NCBI GenBank assembly: GCA_029262635.1 | Contig: JAJCZA010000002.1 | Span: 496,001-560,000 of the forward strand | Direction of reading: 5' to 3' | From: Vampirovibrionales bacterium | GTDB taxonomy: Bacteria; Cyanobacteriota; Vampirovibrionia; Vampirovibrionales; Vampirovibrionaceae | Length of the DNA: 64,000 bases | Shown here: in pieces, positions 5,219 through 63,148 of the stretch | Position numbering within the stretch: position 1 is the stretch's first letter | Layout of the letters: the number at the start of each line of letters is the position of its first letter | Translations under genes and position numbers: made by a program | Notes under the pieces: model-generated | Told to the model about the DNA's origin: nothing | What the model saw: the letters and a program-made list of their open reading frames with translations, nothing else | The model's database searches: none

Positions 5219-7006
5219 TTAATGAATGTTTAACACCACGTTGGCCGGTCTCGTGTAGATCTCCCGAAGGGTGTCCATGTCGCGTTGAGAGGGTTGGTGT
5301 TTGGCATCCGTGGCCAGTGCGTTATCTGGGTGCATGAGGTCATCCGGATTATGGCTGATTCCTTTGAGTCCGAGGGTATGGCCAAACTGGTAGGCGGCCA
5401 TGTTGTGGATGAGGATTAGGGCTTTTTCCAGTGGCAAGTCCCGAGTTGGGTTCAGTCCCAGAACCATTTCCGATTCATCAGCCAGTATTTGGACTTTTCG
5501 TGCCTGACGGTACTGGAGTCCGGCTGAAACCGCCTGAGGTGCTAGAGCGAATGGGCCAGGGGCAAACATGGAGGCCATGCCAACGGCTTGTGCCAGTTTG
5601 CTTTGCTTGGGCGGTGTGTAATTTTTCAGGATGTTGTTGTCATAGTTTTTTGAGTCCGTAAAGGGATCCGTGTACTCCTTGACCCAGTAGATTTGAATAT
5701 CCGCCGCCAGCGGGTTTTTTACTTTGACATAGGAGACAAAGCTGTTGCTGGCGTTTTTCCATCCATCCATTCCGGCCAGTGCCGCCGCCTCAAATTCAGC
5801 TTTATAGAGAGGGTTTTTCTCTTCGGGTGGCTCAATATAGATTCGCACCGGAAATCGGGCCCAGCGAACGACTCGACCATCGGTGTATTTGAAAATATCA
5901 TCAAGGTATGTATTTTCCGCCGTTGAAACTTGTGCCTGAATTAGATGCGGGAGGCTTTCCTGAACGGTTCCGCCGCCGCCTAGCAGGGTGGTAAACATGT
6001 CATCGGCCCGCTTTTCGAGTGCACCGTCTTGCTTTTTTCCGAACACCTTTTTTTCGGCGGATTCCAGTCGGCTAATAAGGGGCTGATCCGTTTGAGGTTC
6101 TACGGCCAACGCGGTTTCAATGGCGGCCAGTTTATCCTGAATAGACCATTCTGTCGTGTTTGGTGGGGCTGAATGAGAGAGCGCGGAAGAAAAATCGAGA
6201 TTGCCGTTTTGCTTGCCATAATCCAGCTTACCGCCAGCAATTTGTTTGGCTCGTTGTTTTATGGCGGGCGAGCTGTCTAGAGCGAGGGCTTTATCAATGA
6301 CGGCTTGTTGAGTGGGTTTATCTTCGCTTTGCTGGCTGGCTAGGCCCAAATAGACATTGGCCAGCGATCGTTTTAATGCCAGCGCTTCGGGATCGAGGGT
6401 TCTGGCCGTTTCTAATAGGGCGGCGGCCTGTTCGTATTGTTGTTCGTTGGCCAGGTTGCGAGCTTCACCAAGGTAAGTCGATGCCAGTGCTTTTTTATAG
6501 GCTGAGGTGTTGGGATCCGTGGCAATGGCTTTTTCAAACAGGGTTTTTAAGGTGCTGAAATCCTGAGAACCCTCTTCTCGAAGATCCATGCCTTGGTAAT
6601 AAAAGCTGGCGGCTTTGGCTTTTAGCGCTTCGGGTTGATTGGGAGAGAGGGCAAGGGATTTATCGAGATAGGTGTTGGATTCATCGTACTGTTTCTTGTT
6701 CTGAAGGGCGATGGCATGGTTAAAATAGAGTACGGCCAAATTGTTTTTCAGAGTCTGGGTGCCGGGGTTTTTTTCGGTGAGCGCTTGCTGAACTGCTTTT
6801 TCGTATAGGGGGATGGCGTCCACGTAGTTGCTGTTGTTGGCATAGGCGTTGGCTGTGTTAACAATTTCCTGGAGGGGTTGAGCGAGTGCGGTCGGAATCC
6901 CAGGCCAGACAAGAAGCGCAAGTAAGCTAAGGGAAAGGGCGAAGGGAAGCGGCCGATTTATTTTTAGTTGATTCCGATGGACTTTGTGGATTCGCTTTGA
7001 ATACAT
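5219..7006 (-). CDS. secreted TPR protein with a degenerate matrixin-like domain
   Basis: 595 residues, with AGGAG seven bases before the ATG. A basic N-terminus and hydrophobic stretch ending TALAQP form a signal peptide. Residues about 45-260 are TPR repeats (YEKAVQQALTEKNP, YFNHAIALQNKKQYDESN, LLETARTLDPEALALKRSLA). The C-terminal domain aligns in order with the matrixin domain of the gene at 24168-26645: IQIYWVKEYTDP, then the zinc-site segment, then PDDLMHPD as Met-turn. Here the catalytic HExxHxxGxxH is YQFGHTLGLKG (Y539, Q540, H543): the first His, the catalytic Glu and the third His are lost. It should not be an active metalloprotease. A role as binding protein or regulator of the active paralogue is inference. 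Confidence 0.8.
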   Translation of the reverse strand: MYSKRIHKVHRNQLKINRPLPFALSLSLLALLVWPGIPTALAQPLQEIVNTANAYANNSNYVDAIPLYEKAVQQALTEKNPGTQTLKNNLAVLYFNHAIALQNKKQYDESNTYLDKSLALSPNQPEALKAKAASFYYQGMDLREEGSQDFSTLKTLFEKAIATDPNTSAYKKALASTYLGEARNLANEQQYEQAAALLETARTLDPEALALKRSLANVYLGLASQQSEDKPTQQAVIDKALALDSSPAIKQRAKQIAGGKLDYGKQNGNLDFSSALSHSAPPNTTEWSIQDKLAAIETALAVEPQTDQPLISRLESAEKKVFGKKQDGALEKRADDMFTTLLGGGGTVQESLPHLIQAQVSTAENTYLDDIFKYTDGRVVRWARFPVRIYIEPPEEKNPLYKAEFEAAALAGMDGWKNASNSFVSYVKVKNPLAADIQIYWVKEYTDPFTDSKNYDNNILKNYTPPKQSKLAQAVGMASMFAPGPFALAPQAVSAGLQYRQARKVQILADESEMVLGLNPTRDLPLEKALILIHNMAAYQFGHTLGLKGISHNPDDLMHPDNALATDAKHQPSQRDMDTLREIYTRPANVVLNIH

Positions 7007-13484: not shown

Positions 13485-14717
13485 TTAGTCGGTCATGAGA
13501 TCCTGGAGAAGCCAGTTAAAAACAGAGCGTTCCGGCTCGTCTGGATTTAATAAATCCCGCACTTTTTTAGAGTGGGTTCGCGTGGCATTCAGCATCCAGT
13601 TTTGATGATCAATGCCAGGGAAGAGTCGGGCTGTTCGTTTATTTTTTAGATGAATCAGGCTATTCCAGAGTTGCCTTTGTCGATCGATATCAGTATCGGC
13701 ATCAATGGTTTCTAAGTCCTGAAATCGGCCGAGCCAGAGGGCGCTTCCAATGGGAACAACACCATCGTTGTAAAGCATGATGGGATAAATGGTGTCGTCT
13801 TTTTTAGGTACATTAACGAGGGGCATTTTCTCAATTTTATTTTGAGTAAAATTAAACGCACGAGCACGTGAGAGAAGAAAAGCCGATTGCTCTTTCGGGA
13901 GTTTCAGTTCCAGATTCAGTTGTTTGAGCAGGTAAGCTTGTTCCTTTTTATGAAGACCAAAAAAGCTGGCATACGTGATGAAGGGTGCATGTTTATATTG
14001 GTTGGCTTGATCCGTTGCGTGACACTGGAGGGGGTGGTGCCCATTAACTTCTGGAGACAAACCTTGATCCAGGTTATCCCAGCAGTAGTCGGCCTCAAAA
14101 TGAGGGCTTTTTTTGCGTACAAAATGATAGACAATTCGCAATGTATAGGGCAGGGGGGAGAGAAAAGAACGTTGTTTTAGTCCTTCTTTCATCCAGGAAC
14201 GGTTGGCCAATGGGGTGCCATGAAACGGAGCGCCAATGGTGATAACTTTATCGCTCAGAGCTTGTATTTCCGGGTTGTCATAAGCTCTCCTAAAAATAAG
14301 CCCGCCCTGACTCAGGGCAACCACCCGCAGTTTTTTAATGCCATAAACTTGTTTAAAATGGGTAATGCTTTTAATGAGATCATGGGCCGTTTCATCGATG
14401 CTTTTTTTCGGGTTAAAATGGAAAAAATAGATTTTATAGCGTTGGTTAAATTCAGTTTTGTCTTTCAGGAACTCCAGGTAAGTGGCCCAGTTATAATAAT
14501 CGCCTTTTTCAGGGCCAATGCCATGAATGAGAACGAGAGGCATCCTTGATTTCAATGGCGTCTCTTTATAAGCTTCCAGATGAGGGTCGTTAAAAGGCTT
14601 AGAATCAAGCGGTGTTGTGGTATCGCTCCAGGCTGGTAAAGACCCGGATAAACCAAAGAAAACCACACAGACAAGTGTTAGGGTTAGATGGAAAACGGTT
14701 ATTGGGCTGCTACGCAT
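13485..14717 (-). CDS. secreted alpha/beta hydrolase (lipase/PGAP1-like), copy 1
   Basis: 410 residues from the ATG at 14717, with AGGA five bases upstream; a TTG seven codons earlier is in frame but has no ribosome site. A signal peptide ends near LPAWSD. The hydrolase core shows PLVLIHGIG (oxyanion region), VVALSQGGL with S136 as nucleophile in a G-x-S-x-G-like elbow whose first Gly is Ala, and ITIGAPFHGTPLA. Near the C-terminus, NDGVVPIGSALWLG and GIDHQNWM supply the probable acid and His. The end shares LLNPDEP with the gene upstream, its clear paralogue. It acts outside the cytoplasmic membrane. Substrate unknown; triacylglycerol, phospholipid or polyester hydrolysis are all possible. 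Confidence 0.82.
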   Translation of the reverse strand: MRSSPITVFHLTLTLVCVVFFGLSGSLPAWSDTTTPLDSKPFNDPHLEAYKETPLKSRMPLVLIHGIGPEKGDYYNWATYLEFLKDKTEFNQRYKIYFFHFNPKKSIDETAHDLIKSITHFKQVYGIKKLRVVALSQGGLIFRRAYDNPEIQALSDKVITIGAPFHGTPLANRSWMKEGLKQRSFLSPLPYTLRIVYHFVRKKSPHFEADYCWDNLDQGLSPEVNGHHPLQCHATDQANQYKHAPFITYASFFGLHKKEQAYLLKQLNLELKLPKEQSAFLLSRARAFNFTQNKIEKMPLVNVPKKDDTIYPIMLYNDGVVPIGSALWLGRFQDLETIDADTDIDRQRQLWNSLIHLKNKRTARLFPGIDHQNWMLNATRTHSKKVRDLLNPDEPERSVFNWLLQDLMTD

Positions 14718-14778
14718 TAGGGTCCTAATATAAATCAACTCTCGGCTTTTCTCTGGCTCTATTTTAACCTGTTTTTTA

Positions 14779-16026
14779 TCAGGAGGTCAGGTCAAAGATA
14801 AACCATTCAAAAATGGTTCTTGATGGCTCATCAGGATTTAATAAATCAGAGAGTTTTGCTTCCTTGCTAAGGTTATGGCCTTCCATCCAGTTGGCGTGGT
14901 CAATAGAATGGAAGAGGCGGGCTTTTTGCTTTCCCTTAAGGCTTTTTAGCGCATTCCAGGGTTGAGCTTTAGAGGCGTTTTTGTATCGGTTGAGCCAGAG
15001 AGAACTACTAATGGGACTGATTCCGTCATTGTAGATGAGCATGGGTAAGTCGGTAGAACTGTTATCGTAGTGAGTTTCCTCTACCGCCATCAGGGTGACC
15101 GCTGAGGTGTCGGATGCGATGGATTTCCTTTTCGATTTCTGGCGGCGAATTTTTTTGGCGAGCTTCTGCTTAATCTGGATGGGAATCGCACTTAAGTTGC
15201 GTTGAACCAACCGAAAAACCGCATGCTTACTGAAGAGATTTTTTAGTCGAGACGGCTCTTTAGGGGGTGCTTCTTTCACTTCCAGTGATTGGAACAATTT
15301 CTCATGATAGGTTGGGGTTACGCCAAAGTAGCTGCCGTAAGTGATAAAGTTGTTATGGTTTTTTAGGGCAAAATAACGTTGGTGAACTCGGGGGGTGGAA
15401 GATTCCGTTTGATCCCAGTGAAAATCTTGCTCAAAATTCGGGTGCATTTTTTTCGCGATGGCATGAGAGAGCTTTTGGGTCAGGCGCATCAAGGAGAATG
15501 GGGTGTTCTCTTTTAACTGTTTACGGAGCCAGGTTTGGTTCGCCAGAGGGGAGCCTTGAAACGGGGAGGCGACTGTAATGACTTTTTCGGTGTGTTGGTA
15601 GATGACTGGGTCCTGCATCACGTTCCGGTAGACCAGCCCCCCTTCGCTGAAGGCTAAAACCCGGAACTCCGGATGATTGTTCTCTGAAATATAAGCCCGT
15701 AACGATTTTTGGATAGACTGGCTGATGTCGGAAACACTTTGAGAGGTATCGTATTGGAACAGGTAGATCTTGAAACGCTTTTGAAATTCAGGGTGCGTTT
15801 GGGTGTACTGTAGGAAAGACTCCCATCGGTAGTGATTGCTTTCCCTTCCGCCAATACCGTGAATCAGGAAAAGCGGGGTGCGGTGGTTCAGCTCTGTTGA
15901 TTGATATTCGGAGAGTTGGGCTATTTTAGAAACAGAAGTCAGGCTTCCCAATTGGCTATAGGCCATGTGAGAGCTGTTAAAAGTTAGTAAAAGCCCTAAG
16001 ACCAAAGCTATAAAAAATCTGTTCAA
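14779..16026 (-). CDS. secreted alpha/beta hydrolase (lipase/PGAP1-like), copy 2
   Basis: 415 residues starting at TTG 16026, preceded by GAGG eight bases upstream; using the next ATG would cut the signal peptide (FFIALVLGLLLTF). Same core as the gene 61 bases downstream: PLFLIHGIGGRES, VLAFSEGGLVYR with S128 as nucleophile, ITVASPFQGSPLA, NDGISPISSSLWLN, SIDHANWM, LLNPDEP. A basic insert (about 270-305, QKLAKKIRRQKSKRKS) is absent from copy 1. The two probably arose by old tandem duplication: motif order is conserved while the sequence between motifs has drifted. Both are likely transcribed together. Confidence 0.82.
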   Translation of the reverse strand: MNRFFIALVLGLLLTFNSSHMAYSQLGSLTSVSKIAQLSEYQSTELNHRTPLFLIHGIGGRESNHYRWESFLQYTQTHPEFQKRFKIYLFQYDTSQSVSDISQSIQKSLRAYISENNHPEFRVLAFSEGGLVYRNVMQDPVIYQHTEKVITVASPFQGSPLANQTWLRKQLKENTPFSLMRLTQKLSHAIAKKMHPNFEQDFHWDQTESSTPRVHQRYFALKNHNNFITYGSYFGVTPTYHEKLFQSLEVKEAPPKEPSRLKNLFSKHAVFRLVQRNLSAIPIQIKQKLAKKIRRQKSKRKSIASDTSAVTLMAVEETHYDNSSTDLPMLIYNDGISPISSSLWLNRYKNASKAQPWNALKSLKGKQKARLFHSIDHANWMEGHNLSKEAKLSDLLNPDEPSRTIFEWFIFDLTS

Positions 16027-16825: not shown

Positions 16826-16962
16826 TGAATAAATAGTCAGGCTAAAAGGGTGCTTGACTCCCTGAGACACATGGGTAAGATAGAAGGATCCTTTTGTGAT
16901 ACAAAGGCTTTTAAAATTTTAATGTGTATTATGTATATTATCGAACCAAGGAATTAAATTCC

Positions 16963-18570
16963 ATGTCCTTACCTAAAGTGGCTTATTTCTGTATGGAAAT
17001 GGCGGTTGATCAAAGTCTGTATACGTACTCCGGCGGCTTAGGATATTTGGCTGGTAGTCACATGAGATCAGCCGGTCATCTCGATTTGCCGATGGTCGGG
17101 GTCACGATTCTGTGGACTCATGGGTATGGCGAGCAGGTGATTGAGCCGAAGACAAAAAAAGCAAAAATTGAATATGACGCACGGCCTCATGATGTTTTGC
17201 AAGACACGGGCGTGAGCGTCGTTGTGGACATTTTTAATGAACCCGTTAGGGTCAAGGCTCTTTTATTGCCCAAAAACAAATTTAATACGGCGCCTATTTA
17301 TTACCTGACCACGGATATCGAGGAAAATAAGCCGGAGCATCGGAAACTAACCCATGTTTTGTACGATAGTGATCAGCGAACCCGTATTGCCCAAGAAATT
17401 ATTTTGGGTATTGGTGGGTTGCGTGTGTTGCGTGCCGCCGCTGAGCACATTAATATCATCCATATGAATGAAGGGCATGCGTTGCCCGCCGCTTTTGAAT
17501 TGCTGGACGAGTTTAATGGCGATATGGAGCAGGTACGTCAACGGTTGGTGTTTACGACCCATACGCCGGTTGCCGCGGGAAATGAGTCCCATCCTGCCCA
17601 TTTACTTCATGAGGCCGGATTTTTTGGAGAAACACCGTTGGATCGGGCCATTGAACTGGGGGGAGATGATTTTTCCCTGACGGTTGCGGCATTGCGGATG
17701 AGCCATATTGCCAACGGCGTGTCTCAGCTTCATGGTCATGTGGCCAATAATATGTGGAACTGGGTTCATGGGCGTTGCCCGATTATTGCCATTACCAATG
17801 CGGCCAATCAGGAGTATTGGCAGGATGAGCGTATTAAACAGGCTGCTGATCCTGAAACGTTGTTAGCAACAAAGCGGGAAATGAAGCAGGAGCTGTTTAA
17901 GCGGGTTAAGGAGCAAACCGGGAAAACCTTTGACCCGGATGTTCTGACCATCGTTTGGGCTCGCCGATTTACAGAGTACAAGCGGGCTTGGTTGATATTT
18001 AAAGACAAGGATCGCTTGAATCGGTTGCTAGAGAGCAATAAAATTCAACTCCTGTTTTCGGGCAAATATCACCCGAAGGACACGCAGGGACGGGATATGT
18101 TCGATACGATTGTCAGCTACGCTGAAACCATGCCGAATCTGGCTATTTTGCCTAATTACGAACTGGAATTAAGCGCTGAGTTAAAGCGAGGGGCCGATGT
18201 TTGGCTGAATACACCCCTTCGTCCGATGGAAGCCTCCGGCACGTCGGGCATGACCGCTAACATGAATGGGGCTATCCACTTCTCGGTTCTGGATGGCTGG
18301 GCCGTGGAAGGCACGTATCATCACATCAATGGCTTTCTCATTAACGAGCAAAGCGCGGATGATTATCTGCCTATTGATGAGCGGCATCGGCAGGATTACG
18401 AGTCCATGATGCAGGTGCTTGAGCAGGACATTATCCCCACCTATTATGAGGACAAAGCACGGTGGGCCCACCTGATGGATCAGGCCATCCTGACCTCCAC
18501 GTCCTTTTTCAATTCCGACCGCATGGTGATCGAATACTTTAATCGCCTTTATAAGCCGGTGGCGTTGTAA
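16963..18570 (+). CDS. glgP: alpha-glucan (glycogen/starch) phosphorylase-family protein, short type, PLP lysine replaced
   Basis: 535 residues from the ATG at 16963, with AAGGAATT about 10 bases upstream; the 13-codon extension has no ribosome site. It matches the short GT35 family: AYFCMEMAVDQSLYTYSGGLGYLAG at the start, HMNEGHALPAAFELLD, VFTTHTPVAAGNE, WARRFTEYKRAWL and LFSGKYHP. The C-terminal signature reads RPMEASGTSGMTANMNG. In canonical phosphorylases the residue after GxM is the lysine that binds pyridoxal phosphate; here it is T431 (codon ACC). Either this subfamily works differently or it is no longer a phosphorylase. The gene tail is copied twice into the genes downstream. Confidence 0.85.
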   Translation: MSLPKVAYFCMEMAVDQSLYTYSGGLGYLAGSHMRSAGHLDLPMVGVTILWTHGYGEQVIEPKTKKAKIEYDARPHDVLQDTGVSVVVDIFNEPVRVKALLLPKNKFNTAPIYYLTTDIEENKPEHRKLTHVLYDSDQRTRIAQEIILGIGGLRVLRAAAEHINIIHMNEGHALPAAFELLDEFNGDMEQVRQRLVFTTHTPVAAGNESHPAHLLHEAGFFGETPLDRAIELGGDDFSLTVAALRMSHIANGVSQLHGHVANNMWNWVHGRCPIIAITNAANQEYWQDERIKQAADPETLLATKREMKQELFKRVKEQTGKTFDPDVLTIVWARRFTEYKRAWLIFKDKDRLNRLLESNKIQLLFSGKYHPKDTQGRDMFDTIVSYAETMPNLAILPNYELELSAELKRGADVWLNTPLRPMEASGTSGMTANMNGAIHFSVLDGWAVEGTYHHINGFLINEQSADDYLPIDERHRQDYESMMQVLEQDIIPTYYEDKARWAHLMDQAILTSTSFFNSDRMVIEYFNRLYKPVAL

Positions 18571-18571
18571 G
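18532..18571 (+). repeat. glgP-tail repeat, original copy
   Basis: These 40 bases code for the last residues of the phosphorylase and its stop. The same stretch recurs at 19180-19219 (37 of 40 identical by eye) and 19733-19772 (39 of 40). Confidence 0.9.
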
Positions 18572-18605: not shown

Positions 18606-19151
18606 TTACTTTTTTGTAAACTGATTTTCGATCCATTGCTCAAAGGCGTTCAGGGTGATTAAAAGATCCGGGGTTCTGTGCAGAGAAAGCGGTCTATCAA
18701 AATCAAAATGAACACCCTTCAATAATCCTTTTTGCATGGTGTCAAGGGCGATACCGGCATTCCCTAAGTCAGAACAATTGGCCGCGTTCATTTTTTTCTT
18801 TATTAATGATAAAACTGGCAGTTTATCTTGAAAAGTCACGCCTTGGGTTATCTTTGAGAGTAAAGGGGCAATGGGTTCGGGGTTCATTAACTTTATAGTC
18901 CGGCTGACGGTGGTGGTTTCATCTTTTGGAACCCGTGTGGTGAGTGTTAGTTCTTGATTGGGATGGATTTTTAGCTGAAAGGGGTAATCCTTATACTCGC
19001 CCAAGGGGGCTAGTTTGGTATCCTCGTTCGTTAGACGAAGACCCAGAGTGACAGTTTGTTGAGGGGCTTTCCAGAAAGTAATTTTTTTAGTCTGTACTTT
19101 AGCGTCGGTGATATAAATCTGGCCGAATTGGATGGGGGCGGTTGGGTTCAT
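18606..19151 (-). CDS. small tandem paralogue family, copy A
   Basis: 181 residues. The start MNPTAPIQFGQIYITDA and the ribosome leader AGGAGTGTTATATCC are shared with two neighbours at 19187-19705 and 19740-20291. The N-terminal 100 residues look beta-rich (TVTLGLRLTNED, LTLTTRVPKDE) and the rest helical. No signal peptide or membrane segment. Copy A ends NAFEQWIENQFTKK, unlike the other two, because its 3' end does not run into a copy of the phosphorylase tail. It is convergent with glgP, 35 bases away. Unknown function; the fixed N-terminus suggests a targeting or docking role, which is speculation. Confidence 0.8.
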   Translation of the reverse strand: MNPTAPIQFGQIYITDAKVQTKKITFWKAPQQTVTLGLRLTNEDTKLAPLGEYKDYPFQLKIHPNQELTLTTRVPKDETTTVSRTIKLMNPEPIAPLLSKITQGVTFQDKLPVLSLIKKKMNAANCSDLGNAGIALDTMQKGLLKGVHFDFDRPLSLHRTPDLLITLNAFEQWIENQFTKK

Positions 19152-19179
19152 GGATATAACACTCCTGTTTTTTGGGGCT

Positions 19180-19219
19180 GAATCCTTTAATCGCCCTTAT
19201 AAGCTGGTGGCGTTGTAAG
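19180..19219 (+). repeat. glgP-tail repeat, duplicated copy 2
   Basis: Matches the phosphorylase 3' end at 18532-18571 at about 37 of 40 positions. It lies antisense over the C-terminal codons of the paralogue at 19187-19705. Confidence 0.88.
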
Positions 19220-19705
19220 CACCCATTGTTCAAGGGCGCTTAAGATAGGGAAGACATCCTGGAGCAAGGTTGGGGTGTTTTTATCAAGGCCAATGTGGTG
19301 GAACGTTTCTCTTTGAGCCTGATCATAGGCCGTTTGTTCTTCGTTCCACAAAGCCTGTAGGTTTATTTTTTGTTGGAGCGTTACCCCTTTGGTTATTTTT
19401 GAGAGGAGAGGGGTGATGCTTTCGGGAGTCAAAGAGACCGTTTGACTTGTTAATTCTTCACTGCCCATAGGTGAAACCTGTGCGGTTAGTGTGACTTGGT
19501 GATCGGGGCTGAGGTGCAGTCTAAAACAATCTGCATATTCCTTAACCGGTGCCAATGCGAGGTCCTCGTCTGTTAACTGAATCGCTAGAGACATTGGATG
19601 TTCCTGAAGGTTCTTTAAGTTAAAGGGGCTTACAGCAGGGCGACACTCTGTTGTTGCGTCGGTGATACGAATCTGACCGAATTGGATGGGGGTGGTTGGG
19701 TTCAT
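19187..19705 (-). CDS. small tandem paralogue family, copy B
   Basis: 172 residues from the ATG at 19705, which carries the same AGGAGTGTTATATCC leader as its neighbours; a longer frame to 19786 runs into the next gene and is rejected. It starts MNPTTPIQFGQIRITDA and shares VSPMGSEELTSQTVSLTPE and ITPLLSKITKGVTLQ with copy C. Its C-terminus LTTPPAYKGD is encoded by the antisense of a duplicated phosphorylase tail. Function unknown; no signal peptide. Confidence 0.82.
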   Translation of the reverse strand: MNPTTPIQFGQIRITDATTECRPAVSPFNLKNLQEHPMSLAIQLTDEDLALAPVKEYADCFRLHLSPDHQVTLTAQVSPMGSEELTSQTVSLTPESITPLLSKITKGVTLQQKINLQALWNEEQTAYDQAQRETFHHIGLDKNTPTLLQDVFPILSALEQWVLTTPPAYKGD

Positions 19706-19732
19706 GGATATAACACTCCTATTTTTGGGGCT

Positions 19733-19772
19733 GAATATTTTAATCGCCTTTATAAGCCGGTGGCGTTGTAAG
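19733..19772 (+). repeat. glgP-tail repeat, duplicated copy 3
   Basis: Matches the phosphorylase 3' end at 18532-18571 with a single difference. It overlaps, antisense, the C-terminal codons of the paralogue at 19740-20291. Confidence 0.9.
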
Positions 19773-20291
19773 CACCCATTGCTCAAAGGCCCTTAATACA
19801 GGGAAGACCTCCCGGAGCAAGGTTGGGGTATTTTTGTTAAGGTTAACGTGGGTGAATGTTTCTCTTTGAGCCTGGTCATAGGTCGTTTGTGCTGTGCCTC
19901 TATCAGAACCTGACGCCAGAAAAATAGCCGTCCACAAAGCCTGTAGGTTTGTTTTGTGTTTGAGCGTTACACCTTGGGTTATTTTTGAGAGAAGAGGGGT
20001 GATGCTTTTGGGAGTCAAAGAGACCGTCTGATTCGTCGATTCTTCACTGCCCATAGGTGAAACATTTGTGGTTAGTGTGACTTGGCGATTTGGGCTAAGG
20101 TGCAGTACGAAACGATCTGCATATTCCTTAACCGGTGCCAATGCGATGTCCTCGGCTGTTAACTGAATCTTTAGAGACATCGCATGTTGCTGGAATTGCC
20201 CTAAGTCAAAATGACATCTAGAAGGACCGTTCTCTATTGTTGCGTCGGTGATATAAATTTGGCCGAATTGAATGGGGGTGGTTGGGTTCAT
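19740..20291 (-). CDS. small tandem paralogue family, copy C
   Basis: 183 residues, first in the three-gene minus-strand series. It begins MNPTTPIQFGQIYITDA and ends EQWVLTTPPAYKGD, the same antisense-derived tail as copy B. Compared with B it has an extra dozen residues (FLASGSDRGTAQ) in the C-terminal half. It is closest to the promoter and palindrome upstream, so it is likely the operon's first gene. Confidence 0.82.
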   Translation of the reverse strand: MNPTTPIQFGQIYITDATIENGPSRCHFDLGQFQQHAMSLKIQLTAEDIALAPVKEYADRFVLHLSPNRQVTLTTNVSPMGSEESTNQTVSLTPKSITPLLSKITQGVTLKHKTNLQALWTAIFLASGSDRGTAQTTYDQAQRETFTHVNLNKNTPTLLREVFPVLRAFEQWVLTTPPAYKGD

Positions 20292-20329
20292 GGATGTAAC
20301 ACTCCTGTTTTTTGAACGGCTTGAAAAGA

Positions 20330-20367
20330 CAAACTATATAATATTACATATATAGTTTGCTTGGCAA
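20330..20367 (-). promoter_or_regulatory. promoter with a perfect palindrome upstream of the tandem paralogues
   Basis: On the minus strand TTGCCA (20367-20362) and TATTAT (20343-20338) are spaced by 18 bases. Overlapping the -10 is a perfect 11-bp inverted repeat, CAAACTATATA (20330-20340) and TATATAGTTTG (20349-20359), spaced by eight bases. It is a good candidate operator for a dimeric regulator controlling copies C, B and A. Confidence 0.5.
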
Positions 20368-35131: not shown

Positions 35132-35605
35132 TTAACAATGGCCCCCAGTTGTTTCAAGAAACTCCACGTCACTAATTTTGGGGAGAGAAAAGCCAGTAAC
35201 TGGAGTTGTGTGGAGCTTAATACGAGTAGGATTCTCCAAGGCTTTCTCTGCAAGCTCTGATTTGGTTATTTCAGGAGTATTGCTACGCTTAAAGTCGTCA
35301 GCATCTTGCCCCGTTAGAAAAATATAAGCTTTCTCCTTTTTCTCTCCATTAGATAAACCTGAGCTAGGAAATTCTATAGTAAAATAGCTGGCCTTAGGGT
35401 TTGCTTGATAATCGGCATCTCTATTTTGAAAAGAATCAACAATCTTTGGACAGGTTCCAGCTTGGTCACAAGCCCAGTGGTCCGATTCTGGTTTATTTAG
35501 AACACTACAAAGAGCTCCTAATTCACTAGATGCTTTATCGGGGTGAACGGAGTAAGCTGTTCCAAATAATAGAGGTTTATGGGAGTTATTGGTAATGCTT
35601 GTCAT
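35132..35605 (-). CDS. hypothetical protein (157 aa)
   Basis: Ribosome site AAAGG ten bases before the ATG. No signal peptide. Three Cys in the first 55 residues (ALCSVL, WACDQAGTCPK) could form a small metal or disulfide site. The C-terminal half is mixed and ends TGGHC. It stands alone between two minus-strand operons. Its opening, MTSITNNSHKPLLFGTAYSV, resembles the short aromatic N-termini of several other unknown proteins here (FG/RF followed by a small residue). No family recognised. Confidence 0.7.
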   Translation of the reverse strand: MTSITNNSHKPLLFGTAYSVHPDKASSELGALCSVLNKPESDHWACDQAGTCPKIVDSFQNRDADYQANPKASYFTIEFPSSGLSNGEKKEKAYIFLTGQDADDFKRSNTPEITKSELAEKALENPTRIKLHTTPVTGFSLPKISDVEFLETTGGHC

Positions 35606-48228: not shown

Positions 48229-48627
48229 ATGACTGTATCGCTTGCTAATCCATTGCCAATTTCGAAAAACCCAGTTTTGTTTGCGTCAGCTACTCACCTC
48301 CGGTTTGCGGGCGACCCACCAGAGACAAAGGAAAATTTGCTTGAAAAGCATCTAAAACAAATTGCAGCTGATGACGAGCAGATCAAGAAGAATCAAACGT
48401 TATTCCAATTTGAGCAAGACTACCCTAGGCTTTCTTGGCTTGATGAGAAGCTTGAACAGGCTCCTCAATGGATGCGCTTCCTGTCGCCACTTGGTTTAAT
48501 TGGACTCCTGGTTAATAAGAAAGACGATGACGACAATAACAATGACCCGCCCAGTGGTGGTGGTGGCGGTGGTTTCGATGAGACTTCACAACTGAAGCCG
48601 ATTCGAATTGAGACTAAAGACCATTAA
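48229..48627 (+). CDS. hypothetical protein (132 aa) with low-complexity C-terminus
   Basis: The start SKNPVLFASATHLRFAGDPP resembles the openings of other unknown proteins here. The middle is helical and acidic, with a hydrophobic stretch (MRFLSPLGLIGLLV) near residue 85. Then comes KKDDDDNNNDPPSGGGGGG, a charged and Gly-rich linker. No signal peptide. Its stop overlaps the convergent truB gene by 14 bases. Confidence 0.68.
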   Translation: MTVSLANPLPISKNPVLFASATHLRFAGDPPETKENLLEKHLKQIAADDEQIKKNQTLFQFEQDYPRLSWLDEKLEQAPQWMRFLSPLGLIGLLVNKKDDDDNNNDPPSGGGGGGFDETSQLKPIRIETKDH

Positions 48628-62251: not shown

Positions 62252-63148
62252 ATGGCTTTTCACACACCAATCAGTTCACGTCCTTCATTCGCAGTGAATC
62301 AGGCTTGGGTTCCAGCAAAGCCGGGTGTTCTTCCTTCGGCTCAGGATACCGTTCGTTTTTCCGGCGCTTTAAGTGTCCAAAAGGCTCTCACTTTTGATAA
62401 GGAGACAGAGCAATGGTGCGTTGAAAAACCGGTTGAGGGTAACCTGTCTTTTCCTGAAAGCTTTAGTGTAAAGGCCGAAGTTAAGGGCGATGTAGAAAGT
62501 ACCCAAGGTTCACTCCATATTAATCGAAAAGGCTGGTTCGGTTGGAGAGCAAACGGAAAGGTCATCAACGCCACGGCGAAGAAGAATATAACCATTGAGG
62601 GAGAGCTCCGTGGTAACGCTTTAAGCCGAGAAGAAGACATTGCTATTGGACCAACAGGAAAGGCCGTTAACGTTACTGCGAGGATGTTTATAAACCTTTA
62701 TGGAAAGCTTAGTGGTGATGCTATCAGCCAAGAAAGTTGGATCAGAATTGGACCAGCAGGAAAGGCCGTCAACGCTAAGGCAAAAGAGGATATAACCCTT
62801 CAAGGAAAGCTTAGTGGTGATGCTATCAGCCAAGAAAGTCGGATCACTATTGGACCAACAGGAAAGGCTGTTAACGCCACGGCGCATTCCTATATAGAGC
62901 TTCACGGGAAACTCAGTGGTGACATCACCCTCACAGGTGCTAAAAAGGGAGTTGGCGCTCCGGTTTTGTTTATTGGTGAGAATGCAAAACTTGGCAAGAC
63001 CAGTCGGATTATTTTTGAAAATGAAAACAATGAAACCGTCCCCGGACTCATCGTCCACCCGGACTGGGTCAAATTAAGCCTTGATGAATCCTTCATTACA
63101 GGAAACTACACCGTGATGTCTCAAAGCGAATATTCTAAACGTTATTAA
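62252..63148 (+). CDS. bactofilin-like beta-helix repeat protein
   Basis: 298 residues from the ATG at 62252, with AGGAG 10 bases upstream; a longer frame to 62141 adds a hydrophobic, non-matching stretch. Opens MAFHTPISSRPSFAVNQA and SAQDTVRFSGA, similar to other unknown proteins here. The middle is a tandem repeat of 34 residues (102 bases) with GPTGKAVN, ITLQGKLSGDAIS and ESRITIGP. Thirty-four is two turns of a roughly 17-residue beta-helix, and the I-x-I-x-G spacing is bactofilin-like. Polymer-forming scaffold is therefore likely but not proven. Two repeat copies are almost identical in DNA (62702-62737 and 62804-62839). Confidence 0.75.
   Translation: MAFHTPISSRPSFAVNQAWVPAKPGVLPSAQDTVRFSGALSVQKALTFDKETEQWCVEKPVEGNLSFPESFSVKAEVKGDVESTQGSLHINRKGWFGWRANGKVINATAKKNITIEGELRGNALSREEDIAIGPTGKAVNVTARMFINLYGKLSGDAISQESWIRIGPAGKAVNAKAKEDITLQGKLSGDAISQESRITIGPTGKAVNATAHSYIELHGKLSGDITLTGAKKGVGAPVLFIGENAKLGKTSRIIFENENNETVPGLIVHPDWVKLSLDESFITGNYTVMSQSEYSKRY
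62702..62839 (+). repeat. 102-base in-gene tandem repeat
   Basis: GGAAAGCTTAGTGGTGATGC and the following 16 bases recur at offset 102 (62702 and 62804) without change. The copies flank more diverged units. Confidence 0.85.

Follow-up and report, generated by a model that had tools for sequence, protein, structure and literature searches.

The window, by which we mean the whole stretch of 64,000 nucleotides of Vampirovibrionales DNA that was analysed, holds an array of three small genes, here called copies A, B and C. The features of the array and other features of the window are collected in Table 1. A preliminary description of this DNA had proposed a three-member family with the common start MNPT[A/T]PIQFGQI and a common leader; three minus-strand open reading frames (ORFs) with this start are indeed present, and the leader is exact before two of them and carries one mismatch before the third. 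The accompanying statement that the rest of the sequence diverges holds for A, whose protein is 40-41% identical to those of B and C, but not for B and C, which are 75% identical to each other. For copy B, an alternative and longer ORF with a TTG start (19187-19786) is likewise open. Near the array lie two adjacent, similar-looking minus-strand ORFs of 417 and 415 aa (13485-14738 and 14779-16026), the latter of which matches palmitoyl-thioesterase-like Pfam models.

Table 1. Features of the array, its phosphorylase neighbour and other tag-bearing ORFs in the window
Feature	Coordinates	Strand	Remarks
Carbohydrate (glucan) phosphorylase gene	16924..18570	+	Convergent with the array; donor of the 40-nt tail
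Phosphorylase 3' tail, original	18532..18571	+	Last ~40 nt of the gene
Copied phosphorylase tail behind B	19180..19219	+	3 of 40 positions differ
Copied phosphorylase tail behind C	19733..19772	+	1 of 40 positions differs
Copy A	18606..19151	-	181 aa; 3' end its own, without overlap with the phosphorylase gene; body diverged (~50% nt identity to B/C)
Copy B	19187..19705	-	172 aa; C-terminal LTTPPAYKGD is antisense of the copied phosphorylase tail
Copy C	19740..20291	-	183 aa; C-terminal LTTPPAYKGD is antisense of the copied phosphorylase tail
N-terminal tag of A	19116..19151	-	MNPTAPIQFGQI
N-terminal tag of B	19670..19705	-	MNPTTPIQFGQI
N-terminal tag of C	20256..20291	-	MNPTTPIQFGQI
Leader of A	19152..19166	-	AGGAGTGTTATATCC, exact
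Leader of B	19706..19720	-	AGGAGTGTTATATCC, exact
Leader of C	20292..20306	-	AGGAGTGTTATATCC with one mismatch
Promoter-like site upstream of C	20338..20367	-	Two overlapping readings
Unrelated ORF, tag-like N-terminus	35132..35605	-	MTSITNNSHKPLLFGTAYS
Unrelated ORF, tag-like N-terminus	48229..48627	+	...THLRFAGDP
Bactofilin-domain protein	62252..63148	+	Domain at residues 61-136; tag VRFSG at 34-38

The leader by itself was searched for in the window, where three matches with up to two mismatches were found against 0.05 expected. Extended by ATGAA, it occurs only at the three sites of the array in the whole 2.99-Mb genome (up to three mismatches allowed). A promoter or RNA element reading of the leader was set aside, since the window gave zero Rfam matches at gathering score and the leader with ATGAA is confined to the array. 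Apart from the promoter-like site upstream of C, the only other one that the scan of the region found on the minus strand lies inside A, and neither A nor B has such a site immediately before it; the three genes may be co-transcribed in the order C-B-A. Counting both strands of the region, five promoter-like sites compare with 3.0 (sd 1.8) expected by chance.

The neighbouring phosphorylase matched six named loci, with 64-67% identity in the four called Vampirovibrio and 35-36% in the other two. In the three of eight relatives' loci that were translated to the end of the gene (L014, L016 and L062), the phosphorylase C-terminus is similar, and we therefore take the phosphorylase gene to be the donor of the tail that is found again behind B and C. 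Tail and leader are joined in like manner at B|A and C|B, and together with the tail copies this indicates that the unit was duplicated in tandem. A stretch of ~58 nt in A is absent from B and C. The array thus arose by tandem duplication of a unit that comprises a small lineage-restricted gene and the final ~40 nt of the convergent phosphorylase gene. It resembles tandem duplicates that have become mosaics by gene conversion or recombination in that its copies lie head to tail, its junctions are duplicated and identity breaks off sharply, but it differs from them in that the 3' tail of a convergent neighbour is part of the unit, and the antisense of this tail now forms the C-terminus of B and C. 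The array illustrates how new coding sequence can arise from the antisense of a neighbour's gene end.

Copy A is a mosaic, with its breakpoint at codons ~17-21. Its leader and first 17 to 21 codons are 85-90% identical to those of B and C, and the remainder about 50%. In a maximum chi-square analysis, identity changed from 0.904 left to 0.519 right of the break for A-B, and from 0.845 to 0.498 for A-C, values reached by 0 of 2000 permutations in either comparison; within the stretch of A that was compared (ATG at 35), the breaks fall at nt 84, that is codon 17, for A-B and at nt 98, codon ~21-22, for A-C. The break between B and C is weaker (14 of 2000 permutations), and there it is the 5' part that is less alike. 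Synonymous divergence, calculated by the Nei-Gojobori method for alignment columns (codons) 1-18 and for the rest, with a Fisher test on synonymous sites, gave the same picture: dS was 0.18 against 1.82 for A-B (p=8e-4) and 0.29 against 1.87 for A-C (p=0.004), but 0.28 against 0.24 for B-C (p=0.73). The contrast in dS and the position of the breaks indicate that the start of A dates from about the time of the B-C duplication, and that its body is much older. The body of A may be a divergent allele or paralog that was recombined into the array, or the 5' end of A may have been converted by B or C; in either case, the three copies would have leader and N-terminus in common because their DNA is young there.

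What, then, does the identical N-terminus say about function? The preliminary description had taken it as a sign of a targeting or docking signal, with recent duplication as the alternative, and had suggested that equal synonymous divergence throughout would speak for the latter. Divergence is not equal (0.18-0.29 in the start, 1.8-1.9 in the body of A); it is, however, the start itself that has the lower dS. A low dS in the common start means that the DNA is young there, through recombination or gene conversion, and the identity of A, B and C alone is therefore no evidence of constraint on the protein. Judging from these comparisons, the N-terminal identity of the three copies is mainly recent DNA sharing. 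Behind the start, in columns 19-50, B and C differ with a dN of 0.35 and a dS of 0.37, so that this stretch drifts freely. A docking signal is nevertheless plausible, on the independent grounds that follow.

The family was extended by profile searches. A different contig (C29) of the same genome, designated G000, carries two more members, again in tandem (E 1e-10 and 1e-5); the two small ORFs that adjoin them (L011:6604-6810 and 6200-6469) look disordered and contain several F-x-G or F-G motifs each. The profile of the three array members found no member in the genomes of 57 other relatives, among them G016, from another family of the order, in which the five-member profile did find an ORF that aligns throughout (E 0.008). 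A second match to the five-member profile contains eight stops and was set aside as chance. Across 382 genomes of the class, the six-member profile matched G000, G016 and only three further ORFs, weakly; these are 319-1000 aa long and were treated as chance as well. The family thus has six members, five genes in G000 and one in G016, which have in common an [IP]xF(K)G start, an LTxxD..L.P block and an LxxK block. F9, I12 and A17 are invariant in all six, and 3 to 13 residues precede the F. Although the three distant members are only 23-30% identical, [IP]xF(K)G is preserved in them at the end of tails of varied length. A peptide-pattern search of the named genomes matched 44 stretches, 0 of which encode a relative.

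Profile searches gave no named family for the bodies of these proteins: Pfam had no match for A or B and one below the cut-off for C, the best match of the five members was to DUF3196 (3.2e-4, in one member only), NCBIfam and PHROGs gave 0.014 and 0.039 at best, and PADLOC gave none. Two AlphaFold models (pLDDT 77.6 and 84.0) predict a single alpha/beta domain that begins at residue 12, with pLDDT below 50 for residues 1-9 and 1-8, respectively, so that PIQFG is predicted to sit outside the modelled fold. Neither model had a Foldseek match at E<=0.001, and in comparisons with PDB structures the best VIA Z values were 5.7 (51 aligned residues, rmsd 5.0) and 4.7 (109 aligned, rmsd 4.1).

Many unrelated ORFs in the sampled stretches of G000 also have short tails that end in a tag-like motif. 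In an initial, unfiltered count, in which the contrast was small, [ILV].F.?G occurred in 37 of 348 ORFs at residues 1-40, in 30 of 328 at residues 41-80 and in 11 of 287 at residues 81-120. For the systematic counts, ORFs were called with a home-made script in stretches of the genomes, the first 50 residues were compared with the rest, and neither hydrophobic contexts nor the five members of the family were counted. We used a strict motif, [ILV].FG, fixed from the small-gene family, and a wider one, [ILVP].F[SQKRAN]?G, in short [ILVP]xF(x)G. In the discovery sample (321 ORFs of G000), the wider motif was found at 36 of 13101 N-terminal positions and at 65 of 78422 others (ratio 3.3, p=7.5e-8). 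Since the wider motif had been shaped on this sample, a fresh sample of 261 ORFs was taken from G000, and it gave 24 of 10769 against 47-48 of 58980 (ratio 2.7-2.8, p=1e-4). In G035, which belongs to a different family of the class, the count over 272 ORFs was 20 of 10488 against 35 of 62157 (ratio 3.4, p=4.6e-5), in a sample that was enlarged after an initial 54 ORFs (4 against 5, p=0.032). In the sampled stretches of G000, [ILVP]xF(x)G is thus about three times as frequent within the first 50 residues of unrelated proteins as it is further on. Its rate per 1000 residues is 1.5-3.4 in the ten-residue bins up to residue 60 and 0.4-1.2 beyond. By ORF, it is present in 57 of 582, belonging to 49 sequence families. 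Among internal blocks of comparable length, 80 of 2256 contain it, a rate of 3.5%, at which about one third of the 57 are expected to be chance occurrences.

Is it F and G that matter? When the two were swapped for every other pair of residues, F/G ranked first among the pairs with at least three N-terminal matches in three samples: 1 of 341 in the discovery sample, 1 of 332 in the fresh sample and 1 of 307 in G035. Other tests count against the tag. The strict motif was enriched in the discovery sample (17 against 29, ratio 3.5, p=1.2e-4) and not significantly so in the fresh sample (8 against 26, ratio 1.7, p=0.14), in which the control pattern [ILV].FD reached p=0.042. The bare F..G pair ranked 26 of 393, and 82 of 369 in the fresh sample alone (p=0.18). 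A context-conditioned test of F gave 50 of 253 against 119 of 895 (p=0.012), and p=0.085 with a stricter context. In an EM search of the N-termini of G000, the best four-residue motif resembled RF[SGKQ]G; it was not relied on, because its score of 79.6 hardly exceeds those of the internal controls (73.7 and 74.3). The enrichment of the wider motif was not significant in G004, which is taken as V. chlorellavorus (8 N-terminal against 27 other matches), in G005 (4 against 23), G001 (5 against 11, p=0.07), G011 (1 against 15) or G032 (9 against 53), and the small samples of G020, G038 and G055 (42, 54 and 9 ORFs) had 0 N-terminal matches.

The tails before the tag have a composition of their own. 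In 63 proteins of G000, they contain 5.3% D/E against 10.4%, and 42% STPNQ against 31%, a comparison in which residues were counted as independent and whose p-values are consequently too small; the motif definition does not demand this composition. The tails of 18 proteins of G035 are not acid-poor and show only a slight rise in STPNQ. Basic residues are not enriched in the tails. What follows the tag is diverse: 15 of 20 tagged proteins chosen by eye matched Pfam at E<=0.001, in many different families, and the best-matching stretch always starts behind the tag, although for one of them, an S1/P1 nuclease, the best match is below Pfam's own cut-off. Hydrolases, a nuclease-like protein and an ankyrin protein are among the tagged proteins. 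In two M18 peptidase relatives in G010, FSG stands at the same place and nearly all other tail residues are changed. PhzF-like relatives in G001, G002, G003 and G012, which are 27-41% identical, start at the domain, without a tail; among these genomes, the tag sampling covered G001. Two ORFs of G000 that combine AAA and M41-like (FtsH-type) domains (L096:7540-9852 and L098:11641-15345) appear by eye to have the tag before a hydrophobic stretch.

PIQFG is kept in the distant paralogs and in the distant homolog, lies outside the modelled fold, and belongs to a wider motif that is enriched N-terminally; on these grounds it looks like a tag. The motif is enriched, stands near the N-terminus, follows a tail of characteristic composition in G000 and is conserved in two gene families, and we think that a docking or sorting tag is the most likely mechanism behind these features. 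As an explanation of the whole, we regard as rather probable a duplicated mosaic array whose proteins carry [ILVP]-x-F-(x)-G as an N-terminal docking or sorting tag. The N-terminus ends in this motif, which in the sampled proteins of G000 stands after a Ser/Thr/Pro/Asn/Gln-rich and acid-poor tail; the tag would be read by a receptor, A, B and C would be clients of this putative receptor with the folded body as cargo, and the tagged proteins would have a common destination. More tentatively, and with rather less confidence, we propose that some lineages of this Melainabacteria class may mark about 1/10 to 1/20 of their proteins with an N-terminal code for sorting or docking, in the form of a flexible tail that has [ILVP]-x-F-(x)-G at its end and that a receptor would read for a common site or for export; its carriers might, equally tentatively, include proteases, a nuclease-like protein, bactofilin, an ankyrin protein and many lineage-specific proteins.

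The most serious objection is that there may be recent sharing only, with a start that was homogenised by recombination and has no function of its own, and a genome-wide excess of FxG that is an effect of composition. The dS of A's start, which is close to the B-C divergence, and the breakpoint found in both A-B and A-C agree with this, as do the non-significant strict motif in the fresh sample and the unremarkable rank of the bare F..G pair. We nevertheless consider it unlikely as a full account, given that F/G ranks first of more than 300 substitutions in three samples and that the tag is kept in homologs too distant for recent exchange, and also in the M18 peptidase relatives. Alternatively, the motif might simply form the first beta strand of the domain and be conserved because folding requires it. 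A strand does start at residue 12, directly behind FG, and I12 and A17 are invariant too; the low pLDDT of the first eight or nine residues and the occurrence of the motif before unrelated domains make this quite improbable. A constraint at the nucleotide level on the leader and early codons, for translation initiation or regulation, would fit the fact that no other DNA is as well conserved between A and B/C, but we hold it to be very improbable, as dS between B and C is no lower in codons 1-18 than in the rest (with ~13 synonymous sites in the start) and the window lacks a match to Rfam at gathering score.

Could the tag serve secretion in predation? The use of a type IV secretion system in predation is proposed for effectors of V. 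chlorellavorus (PMC4451040), a member of the Vampirovibrionaceae, Melainabacteria, and the hydrolases, the nuclease-like protein and the ankyrin protein among the tagged proteins would suit such a role. VirB4 (PF03135), however, was found in only one of the eight genomes searched, with three genes (contigs C1, C13 and C2) in the one taken as V. chlorellavorus, which has no significant tag enrichment. Neither of the tag-positive genomes yielded VirB4, at E<=0.001 in the case of G000, whose assembly is 95.9% complete. Since VirB4 was not found where the tag is enriched and is present where no significant excess was seen, export by this route is extremely unlikely. Known export signals were also looked for by eye in A, B and C: residues 1-25 contain no hydrophobic run of the kind found in Sec or Tat signal peptides, and the N-termini no lipobox.

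N-terminal targeting and docking peptides include transit peptides, cargo-loading peptides and N-terminal secretion signals. The tags described here share with such peptides in general a short flexible tail and a small aromatic motif before unrelated folded domains, but A, B and C differ in having neither hydrophobic core nor lipobox, and in the motif itself, [ILVP]xF(x)G. Chloroplast transit peptides are generally S/T-rich. Their FGLK motif is linked to Toc34 (PMC5571161). The tails of G000 resemble them in being S/T-rich and acid-poor and in containing F and G, and the bacterial family includes an algal predator; the bacterial tails differ in that basic residues are not enriched and those of G035 are not acid-poor. 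Among the literature matches listed, which comprised titles and beginnings of abstracts with few subscription journals, none dealt with N-terminal tags of Vampirovibrio, Melainabacteria or Gastranaerophilales. Provided that it is real and has a function, the tag would be a signal for sorting or docking in a little-studied sister group of the Cyanobacteria that is not photosynthetic and counts an algal predator among its members, and it would offer a way into dozens of proteins that otherwise lack annotation.

Elsewhere in G000, three pairs of tagged ORFs are related to each other and lie close together, at L101:16903/17555, L053:8143/8559 and L052:553/1424. In G011, which belongs to the same order, three ORFs (L082 16167, L082 18026 and L083 9882) have the identical start MTTFADIQIQQATPTHKF and perhaps belong to a mobile element.
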